From positions 43,802 through 107,801 of the IMG/VR virus record IMGVR_UViG_3300027770_002599: DNA of 64,000 nt, one strand, 5' to 3'. A program made the translations under genes and the position numbers. The notes under the pieces are model-generated. The model saw only the letters and a list, made by a program, of their open reading frames with translations. It had not been told where the DNA came from and did no database searches. Numbering within the stretch: the first letter of the stretch is position 1; each line of letters begins with the position of its first letter. This stretch comes from a virus. Below are positions 24,168 through 64,000 of this stretch, piece after piece.

Positions 24168-24190
24168 TTCTTTTCATCCTTAACAAAGAT

Positions 24191-24219
24191 ATTATACACA
24201 AAAAAAGAGAGGGTGTCAA
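24191..24219 (-). promoter_or_regulatory. Early sigma70-type promoter, -35 in terminator loop
   Basis: TTGACA (24214-24219), 17 bp, TATAAT (24191-24196): a full consensus match. The -35 hexamer is exactly the six-base loop of the terminator hairpin at 24204-24229. It should drive the operon from the 55-residue gene through thyX, phoH and gp32. Confidence 0.88.
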
Positions 24220-24229
24220 CCCTCTCTTT
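24199..24229 (-). terminator. Terminator overlapping a promoter
   Basis: A perfect 10-bp stem (AAAGAGAGGG with CCCTCTCTTT), six-base loop, then a T-run on the minus strand. It ends the phosphoesterase/speD operon. Confidence 0.88.
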
Positions 24230-24938
24230 AAAATTTTATAATTTTAAATATTCCATCTTTCTCTACAATCGCAGAACAGGTATCCGTCCAGTCTCCACAA
24301 CACATATAGATTGTACCATTCTGTTCACGAATATTTGCGTGATGAATATGCCCCACAATCACTCCGTCATAAGAAGCAAACTTTCTTACATAACGAATTA
24401 AATCCATTTCATAATTATCAATAAATCTCTTTCCTCTTGGAAGATCTTTCAGAAAGTTTACCAAAGAAAATCCAATAGTTTTATTCAGAAAGTTATTCAA
24501 TGGAGTGATTGTCTCATATCCTTTATTCATAAAATATTGCTTCCAAGAACCAGAAGAGAACTCAGAATACATATCACCGTGAATACATAGAAACTTTTTA
24601 TTTTTCTTACTGGTATGAATATACTCATCACAGATGACAAGATTATCAAACTTAAAAGATTTATTATTCACATATTTTCTTGCCACTGCATCGTGATTAC
24701 CAAGAACATAAATCACTTCGGTTCCCTTTCTACAAATATCAAGTATTTTTTCTACTGCCTTTGTATGCCTTGCTCTCCAATGCGTATTGTACTTTTCCAT
24801 ACAATGCACATCAAGAATATCGCCAACCATTACAAGTTTCTTGGTATCAAGTTCATTTAGAAACTTGAGAAACTTTTCAATATTACATCTGTCTGTCCCC
24901 AAATGAACATCAGAAATAAAGACTGTATCGTAAGTCAT
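24228..24938 (-). CDS. Calcineurin-like metallophosphoesterase (LpxH-like)
   Basis: 236 residues. Metal ligands follow the family order: ISDVHLG (D, H), MVGDILD (D), LGNHDA (N, H), CIHGD (H) and VGHIHHA (H-x-H). The set resembles UDP-2,3-diacylglucosamine pyrophosphatase LpxH, but substrate cannot be told. It is coupled to speD by an ATGA overlap. It may act on nucleotides or lipid A precursors. Confidence 0.85.
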   Translation of the reverse strand: MTYDTVFISDVHLGTDRCNIEKFLKFLNELDTKKLVMVGDILDVHCMEKYNTHWRARHTKAVEKILDICRKGTEVIYVLGNHDAVARKYVNNKSFKFDNLVICDEYIHTSKKNKKFLCIHGDMYSEFSSGSWKQYFMNKGYETITPLNNFLNKTIGFSLVNFLKDLPRGKRFIDNYEMDLIRYVRKFASYDGVIVGHIHHANIREQNGTIYMCCGDWTDTCSAIVEKDGIFKIIKF

Positions 24939-29099: not shown

Positions 29100-29238
29100 C
29101 TTAAAAGGGTAAGTAGTAGTTCAGGAGGTGCTGAACGGTAAAAGTATTCCTATGCAACCCTCCTGCATAGGTATGAGGACGGATTTTACTTGCCTAGTCC
29201 TGGTGCGGCAAGGTGAAGAAAAGTTACATTCCTTAACA
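29100..29238 (-). promoter_or_regulatory. Structured psbA leader
   Basis: About 140 nt separate the predicted start site from the ATG. Three hairpins are visible: 29149-29171 (perfect 8-bp stem), 29119-29136 (6-bp), 29189-29212 (6-bp ends). The leader may set RNA stability or translation of psbA. No known riboswitch recognised. Confidence 0.6.
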
Positions 29239-29240
29239 CC

Positions 29241-29274
29241 TATTTATCATAGCATTGTCAGGAAATCCTGTCAA
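29241..29274 (-). promoter_or_regulatory. psbA promoter: early box overlapping a late box
   Basis: TTGACA (29269-29274), 17 bp, TATGAT (29246-29251). The late-type GATAAATA (29241-29248) overlaps the -10. psbA could thus be transcribed both early and late. Confidence 0.85.
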
Positions 29275-31591: not shown

Positions 31592-31801
31592 TCACCATAA
31601 CCCAGGAATAATCTGCCCGGTCACAGCATAAGCACCAAGAGCAGCAATTACTCCCAGCATCGCAAAACGACCATTCAGTTTTTCTGCACGTTCGCTATAA
31701 GTTTCTTGTTCGTGTTTCATTTGATCTTCCTCTGTGATATACATTTTGGGTTCTCTGGCGAACATATTTTGGCGTCCACCGTCTTCAGTCGTAACAGTCA
31801 T
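31592..31801 (-). CDS. hli: High-light-inducible protein (Hli)
   Basis: 69 residues. AEKLNGRFAMLGVIAALGAYAVTGQ is the single-helix ExxNGRxAMxG chlorophyll-binding motif. An acidic N-terminal region precedes it. It sits in the thylakoid and protects photosystems, working with phage D1. It is the first gene after the promoter in the terminator loop at 31829-31857. Confidence 0.96.
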   Translation of the reverse strand: MTVTTEDGGRQNMFAREPKMYITEEDQMKHEQETYSERAEKLNGRFAMLGVIAALGAYAVTGQIIPGLW

Positions 31802-31828: not shown

Positions 31829-31857
31829 ATTATATAGAAAAAAAGAGAGGGTGTCAA
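31829..31857 (-). promoter_or_regulatory. Early promoter, -35 in terminator loop
   Basis: TTGACA (31852-31857), 17 bp, TATAAT (31829-31834). The -35 is the exact loop of the hairpin at 31843-31866, as at 24.2 kb. It drives hli. Confidence 0.88.
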
Positions 31858-31866
31858 CCCTCTCTT
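31836..31866 (-). terminator. Terminator of the porin-like gene, overlapping the hli promoter
   Basis: A 9-bp stem AAGAGAGGG/CCCTCTCTT, six-base loop and a run of seven T on the minus strand. Just after the stop of the porin-like gene. Confidence 0.88.
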
Positions 31867-48527: not shown

Positions 48528-48556
48528 ATTATAGCAAAAAAGGAGAGTTTATGCAA
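48528..48556 (-). promoter_or_regulatory. Promoter of the glycan cluster, -35 region in a terminator hairpin
   Basis: TATAAT (48528-48533), 17-bp spacer, TTGCAT (48551-48556; only TTG matches). The geometry is that of the two perfect cases at 24.2 and 31.8 kb. Weak -35, perfect -10. Confidence 0.6.
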
Positions 48557-48563
48557 CTCTCCC
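48534..48563 (-). terminator. Attenuator-like terminator before the glycan cluster
   Basis: Stem GGAGAGTT/AACTCTCC, five-base loop, then six T on the minus strand. The 5' arm can pair instead with 48618-48624. Confidence 0.8.
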
Positions 48564-48923: not shown

Positions 48924-48995
48924 ACCAGTACTTTTAAAGTCTCTCCGTGACTTGCAGGGGTCCCCGACCAGTACTTTTTAAGTCTCTCCGTGACT
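48924..48995. repeat. Paired 29-bp direct repeats around a palindrome
   Basis: Two copies (48924-48952, 48967-48995) match at 28 of 29 positions, spaced 43 bp apart. Each holds the near-palindrome ACTTTTAAAGT. Between them is GGGGTCCCC (48957-48965). The 212-bp gap 48867-49078 holds no other convincing gene. Confidence 0.8.
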
Positions 48996-58434: not shown

Positions 58435-58467
58435 AAAAAATGAGACCTCGTTAATTAGAGGTCTCAT
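58435..58467 (-). terminator. Terminator before the virion gene
   Basis: 10-bp stem ATGAGACCTC/GAGGTCTCAT, eight-base loop, T-run on the minus strand (and a weaker one on plus). Confidence 0.88.
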
Positions 58468-58618
58468 TATTTTTTGAGAGAACTATTAAAATATTTCGTA
58501 TAAACTGATATACAGTATTTGCCTTTATTTTTTTATTTTGTCCAAGATATTCAGAAAAGGAAAACAACAATCCAAGGATTACTGTTATTCCCCAATTTGC
58601 TACTAAACAACTAATCAC
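58451..58618 (-). CDS. Small membrane protein, GTG start, holin-like size (55 aa)
   Basis: GTG at 58618 overlaps the upstream stop (GTGA). One hydrophobic helix (LVANWGITVILGLLFSF), then SEYLGQNKKIKANTVYQFIRN and a second hydrophobic patch. The stop is in the loop of the terminator. Pattern SEYLG.N..IKAN.VYQ recurs in small phage membrane proteins. Holin role is only a guess. Confidence 0.6.
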   Translation of the reverse strand: MISCLVANWGITVILGLLFSFSEYLGQNKKIKANTVYQFIRNILIVLSKNNETSN

Positions 58619-63706: not shown

Positions 63707-64000
63707 CTATGGTTTTGAAAGAATTGGATCAACTTTAACATTTGAACCTGTTCTGTCATTTCTTCTTGCCGCTGCCTGATGGGCGTTACGTCTTTGAAAA
63801 AATTCTTTTGTAGGCGCTCCAGTATCTATGTCTCGTCTATCTCTTGCTCTTAATAATCCTGCTACTTTTTTATCAGAAATTTCATTAAGTTTTGAAAGAA
63901 TTGGATCAACTTTAACATTTGAACCTGTTCTGTCATTTCTTCTTGCCGCTGCCTGATGGGCGTTACGTCTTTGAAAAAATTCTTTTGTAGGCGCTCCAGT
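63707..64000 (-). CDS. Partial CDS with 59-codon tandem repeat (5' end beyond window)
   Basis: Reads TGAPTKEFFQRRNAHQAAARR...VDPILSKLNEISDKKVAGLLRARDRRDID, then the same TGAPTKEFF...VDPILSK again, ending P-stop. Unit of 59 residues, basic and helical. Runs off the right edge, so more units may exist. Function unknown; a virion or DNA-binding role is possible. Confidence 0.75.
   Translation of the reverse strand, partial: TGAPTKEFFQRRNAHQAAARRNDRTGSNVKVDPILSKLNEISDKKVAGLLRARDRRDIDTGAPTKEFFQRRNAHQAAARRNDRTGSNVKVDPILSKP
63712..64000. repeat. Perfect direct repeat, period 177 bp
   Basis: 63712-63823 and 63889-64000 are identical over 112 bp and lie in the same reading frame. The second copy reaches the window edge. 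Confidence 0.95.

Follow-up and report, generated by a model that had tools for sequence, protein, structure and literature searches.

A putative composite terminator-promoter with the -35 box in the terminator loop recurs at operon boundaries of T4-like cyanophages

The stretch of DNA analyzed here (hereafter the window) comprises 64,000 nt of the IMG/VR record IMGVR_UViG_3300027770_002599 (record positions 43,802-107,801). On the basis of its gene content (psbA, hli genes, and gp32) and of its best relatives, which are found among Kyanoviridae, the window is assigned to a T4-like cyanophage of this family. Two near-identical elements lie in it between tandem genes, copy 1 downstream of a metallophosphoesterase gene and copy 2 directly upstream of hli (Table 1). 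The genes flanking both copies are all encoded on the minus strand, and therefore both a terminator for the first gene and a promoter for the second are called for at each junction. A bidirectional role of the elements was set aside in view of this gene orientation and of the plus strand, which is without a good T-run. The SLH-domain protein encoded upstream of copy 2 in this phage genome (31876-32760, 294 residues) is without a PHROG match. An exact 112-bp direct repeat (63712-63823 and 63889-64000, 177 bp apart), possibly an assembly or terminal feature, closes the window at the point where the 107.8-kb record ends as well.

Table 1. Positions of the composite elements, their parts, and the adjacent genes (window coordinates, unless a relative's locus is named).
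Feature	Position	Strand	Remarks
Composite terminator-promoter (putative), copy 1	24191-24229	-	Sequence anatomy and RNA folding
Copy 1, 5' stem arm AAAGAGAGGG	24220-24229	-	Outermost bases shared with the TAA stop codon ending the upstream ORF
Copy 1, loop = -35 hexamer TTGACA	24214-24219	-	T1-A6 able to close a TGAC tetraloop
Copy 1, 3' stem arm CCCTCTCTTT	24204-24213	-	
Copy 1, T-run, 7 T, within the -35/-10 spacer	24200-24206	-	Initial three T paired to AAA in the 5' arm
Copy 1, -10 hexamer TATAAT, 17 nt from -35	24191-24196	-	
Gene upstream of copy 1: calcineurin-like metallophosphoesterase	24228-24938	-	Stop codon and stem base overlap
Gene downstream of copy 1: phrog_878, 55 aa	24000-24167	-	Promoter upstream kept in relatives
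Composite terminator-promoter (putative), copy 2	31829-31866	-	Sequence anatomy and RNA folding
Copy 2, 5' arm	31858-31866	-	
Copy 2, -35/loop TTGACA	31852-31857	-	
Copy 2, 3' arm	31843-31851	-	
Copy 2, T-run, 7 T	31838-31844	-	
Copy 2, -10	31829-31834	-	
Gene upstream of copy 2: SLH-domain protein, 294 aa	31876-32760	-	
Gene downstream of copy 2: high light inducible protein (hli)	31592-31801	-	
Weaker third composite: ggagagtt-GCATA-aactctcc, T6, TATAAT	48528-48562	-	Absent from the sequence-only reading
Conserved element GGGAGTGACTGAA(T/C)AA	L694 480-492; L695 467-484; L696 459-475; L698 461-477		

On the minus strand (24229-24191), copy 1 reads AAAGAGAGGG TTGACA CCCTCTCTTT TTTT GTG TATAAT. 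A sequence-only reading of this DNA had described a perfect 10-bp stem with TTGACA as its loop, TATAAT seventeen bases further on, and a T-run between the two boxes. All of this was borne out: the 10-bp stem encloses TTGACA without a mismatch, exactly 17 nt separate the hexamers, and the T-run (24206-24200) falls inside the spacer, the sequence 3' of TTGACA being CCCTCTC TTTTTTT GTG TATAAT. The near-identical copy that had been placed at 31829-31866 was likewise confirmed, with a 9-bp stem around TTGACA and the geometry of copy 1. RNA folding yielded -16.2 kcal/mol (z -3.6) for copy 1 and -15.4 kcal/mol (z -4.2) for copy 2, and in both cases 0/200 shuffles were as stable. In the predicted fold of copy 1 the T1 and A6 of the hexamer form an eleventh pair, reducing the loop to a TGAC tetraloop, which is predicted also for copy 2. 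The ATG of the phrog_878 gene (24167) is located 24 nt past the -10 box of copy 1.

Both copies match the sigma-70 hexamers at 12/12 positions with a spacing of 17 bp, within the 16-18 bp range of such promoters. TTGACA-17-TATAAT occurs twice in the 64-kb window and twice in the 107.8-kb record, and both occurrences are copies 1 and 2. If the spacer is left loose, the promoter pattern by itself has a chance expectation of 0.54 per window, and the promoter boxes alone therefore prove little; weaker promoter-like sites numbered 101 in the window vs. 92 expected. What carries the case is conservation, together with the hairpin and the location between tandem genes. With regard to intrinsic termination, both copies have a stable GC-rich hairpin with a T-run directly after the stem, and at orthologous junctions base pairing is conserved by compensatory change, as described below. 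In an Rfam search of the region neither copy scored above the gathering score, and only PhotoRC-II (29136-29226) passed. This RNA lies upstream of psbA. A promoter (29274-29246) precedes it, and immediately ahead of that promoter stands a separate terminator (29307-29282), a non-overlapping form of the same arrangement. At 58439-58468 we also observed a near-perfect palindromic hairpin, AATGAGACCTC-GTTAATTA-GAGGTCTCATT, which has T-rich tails on both strands and looks like a two-way terminator.

The third composite (48562-48528) has GCATA as its loop, and the -35 box at 17 nt is TTGCAT, with 3/6 matches. Single weak cases such as this one may be due to chance, as several control spacings in AT-rich flanks also score promoter-like when the -35 is perfect. 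The gene-poor stretch upstream of it contains two 29-bp copies of ACCAGTACTTTT(A/T)AAGTCTCTCCGTGACT, 43 bp apart (48924-48995).

For the junction at copy 1, 80 relatives were fetched via the downstream phrog_878 gene. Of 79 relatives, most have a promoter at nearly the same distance from the phrog_878 start codon, also where the hairpin is absent. Close relatives have a stem identical to that of the window, while other relatives, with unrelated upstream genes, have AGAGACC/GGTCTCT, GGAGGG/CCCTCC, GCGTGTC/GACACGC, GGGGC/GCCCC, and more. More than a dozen unrelated stems substitute for each other at this junction, with complementarity kept. Some freshwater relatives carry the promoter alone, without a hairpin, and their -35 box sometimes shares bases with the stop codon of the gene upstream. 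When 47 distinct junctions were compared, positions 1-4 and 6 on either side of the hexamer showed more Watson-Crick pairing than in any of 2000 arm swaps, and GC, CG, AT, and TA pairs were all seen. A gapless alignment of 23 representatives gave a covariation score of 0.665 vs. 0.309 +/- 0.040 for shuffled data (0/500), above all slid controls, with 48 cells changed on both sides vs. 18.8. These representatives were hand-picked to span the stems and include three without a hairpin; the pairing test on the 47 junctions is thus the less selected of the two.

Both tests support the earlier expectation that the stems co-vary. The loop, which had been expected to stay fixed, was found to drift, but only among -35-like words (TTGACA, TTGACT, TTGACG, TTTACA, TTGATC, TTGCGA); its register can also move by 1-2 bases, giving the loops CTTGAC and CTTGA. 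As the promoter position is kept while stems and upstream genes change, the promoter appears to be the constant part, around which the terminator would have been built, lost, and rebuilt. Since the promoter persists in some relatives that lack the hairpin, it does not require the composite.

In a survey of cyanophage loci fetched by protein similarity, with the motif disregarded, we collected a non-redundant set of 160 terminators. In 46 of them the distance from the loop centre to the start of TANNAT is 20-21 nt, a count of not fully independent events as some terminators share orthologous junctions, while other distances are represented mostly by 0-5 cases per position (about 1-2 on average). 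A distance of 20-21 nt places the -35 box within the loop, where TTGACA, TTGACT, TTGACG, TTTACA, TTGCAA, and similar words were found. We also searched fetched cyanophage loci for TTGACA-16/18-TANNNT, with swapped arms as controls. A hairpin around the -35 box was present at 6/144 TTGACA promoters in gp32 loci (vs. 0.04 arm-swapped), 10/98 in phrog_878 loci (vs. 0.48), and 4/72 in hli loci (vs. 0.2). For TTGACA without a -10 box, the corresponding values were 1/343, 0/165, and 1/299 (2/807 overall). A control with shifted -35/-10 spacing proved poor, since a perfect -35 with AT-rich flanks passes a loose score; the distance histogram and the arm swaps were used instead.

Scanning of IMG/VR with TTGACA-N7-T6-N4-TATAAT, a pattern that leaves the 5' arm unspecified, revealed a hairpin at 39 of 109 distinct sites vs. 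2.4 arm-swapped, among the matches listed; with the same pattern, bacterial genomes gave 2/121. A second IMG/VR scan with TTTG added returned many more cases and was excluded as a rate because it is pattern-biased. Over the two viral scans at least 23 different arm pairs were seen, and at 40 of the 44 hairpin loci among the matches listed, at least two proteins were similar to cyanomyoviral ones. None of 16 terminators of T4 showed the arrangement. Judging by these sequence counts, the arrangement is a recurrent architecture rather than a coincidence. The purine fraction of the 5' arm was 0.82 for composite terminators vs. 0.66 for other terminators in the same loci; the promoter spacer is therefore pyrimidine-rich.

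Among named isolates, S-SM2 has three composites in its seven terminators, with three different stems; one of these composites (167143-167179) is located between SSM2_222 and hli03. Two composite terminators with two different stems were found in ACG-2014f and one in S-CREM1; weaker composites are present in P-SSM2, S-PM2, and S-IOM18, and none was found among the terminators of Syn9. In S-SSM5 (about 116339-116390) and P-RSM4, the gene for the major head protein, gp23, is immediately followed by a composite. As about 11 of the 83 terminators pooled from seven isolates qualify, and none in Syn9, the arrangement is common but not universal. A near-identical GGGAGTGACTGAA(T/C)AA was observed downstream of the composite in P-TIM40, S-SSM5, P-RSM4, and a marine virus, at most about 25-40 nt away from the -10 region (Table 1).

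T4-like cyanophages are assumed to rely on the RNA polymerase of the host. We propose that the element very probably constitutes a composite terminator-promoter joint, read by this enzyme at operon boundaries. Transcription of the upstream operon would produce the GC-rich hairpin and U7 and stop around 24200. The same stretch, as double-stranded DNA, would bind sigma-70 holoenzyme: the loop segment would supply the -35, the -10 would follow beyond the T-run, and the new transcript for the next gene would be expected to begin near 24184. The 3' stem arm and the T-run would thereby double as the 17-bp promoter spacer. As the new RNA would begin downstream of the hairpin, the promoter's own transcript would never contain it, and therefore the terminator would act only on polymerase arriving from upstream. 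Such tight interlocking is possible because the spacer sequence is little constrained and the terminator leaves the loop unconstrained. The claim of the sequence-only reading that the element ends one operon and starts the next is thus supported by its anatomy and evolution, and the mechanism proposed follows from this anatomy and from established rules; actual termination, actual initiation, and timing we infer. A polymerase terminated in the T-run would already be placed over the next -35/-10 and could re-initiate after a slide of about 12 bp, a hand-over that is conceivable but rather unlikely. If it took place, the activity of one phage operon would feed the next in order along the genome.

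The same features could be read as a promoter only, in which a regulator of the phage or the host would use the inverted repeat around the -35 as its operator and the hairpin would be incidental. The centre of the repeat does coincide with the -35, where repressors classically bind, and the two copies in the window have the same stem. Yet, the stems differ widely among relatives and even within genomes (three in S-SM2, two in ACG-2014f), with complementarity and the T-run kept, whereas a protein-binding site would keep its sequence and leave the T-run unexplained, which makes this explanation very improbable. We give still less credence to a terminator whose promoter boxes arose by chance in an AT-rich genome. 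The chance expectation of the loose-spacer pattern and the abundance of weaker sites given above are in line with it, but the -10 lies at a fixed distance from the loop, -35 words are retained in loops, orthologs without a hairpin have the promoter at the same place, and the pattern is rare in T4 and bacterial loci. Both explanations were rejected on the grounds given.

The composite joint itself may reflect genome compaction only, the overlap of stop and start saving space while the two activities are uncoupled. This is a sub-case of the preferred explanation and not exclusive with it, and we regard it as somewhat probable. Intergenic gaps are short (about 50-100 bp), the overlap of the -35 with the upstream stop codon in hairpin-free freshwater relatives shows length pressure, and nothing speaks directly against it. 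The overlap is not forced, however, as the same phages use separate back-to-back forms, such as the terminator at 29307-29282 with a promoter at 29274.

The composite joint would offer a simple sequence rule for locating cyanophage operon borders and start sites; the timing of cyanophage expression, including that of photosynthesis genes such as hli, has so far been mostly inferred. It would also place one stretch of DNA under two constraints, one acting on RNA (stem pairing) and one on DNA (hexamers and spacing), and, being very short, could be used as a part in cyanobacterial synthetic circuits.

A -35 box serving as a terminator loop was not found in Rfam or in searchable papers, which is weak evidence of novelty as the subscription literature lies mostly outside. 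Both parts are of known kinds; no description was found of their fixed interlocking and its recurrence within a single phage family. The elements resemble intrinsic (Rho-independent) terminators in their GC-rich perfect stem of 9-11 bp, small loop, and run of 7 T, and appear to differ from them in that the loop is a -35 hexamer and the T-run a promoter spacer. With the sigma-70 and T4-like early promoters of cyanophages they share TTGACA-17-TATAAT, but here the -35 is enclosed by the terminator stem of the preceding gene. Motifs of the TTGACA-17-TATAAT type were described upstream of cyanomyoviral psbA (PMC5931967), in passages that mention no terminators. Engineered terminator-promoter bifunctional elements of yeast unite two functions in one element (PMC10298055); as described there, they are synthetic, eukaryotic, and fused, without a hairpin loop as promoter box. 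After intrinsic termination, the polymerase of E. coli can remain on DNA and re-initiate at a nearby promoter (PMC6978380, PMC11347151). In these recycling systems a terminator likewise adjoins a promoter, as separate elements up to about 1000 bp apart, whereas here both lie in the same 40 bp and re-initiation is hypothetical. The composite would lend itself to testing, in a natural setting and at minimal distance, whether polymerase is recycled from a terminator to the promoter that follows.
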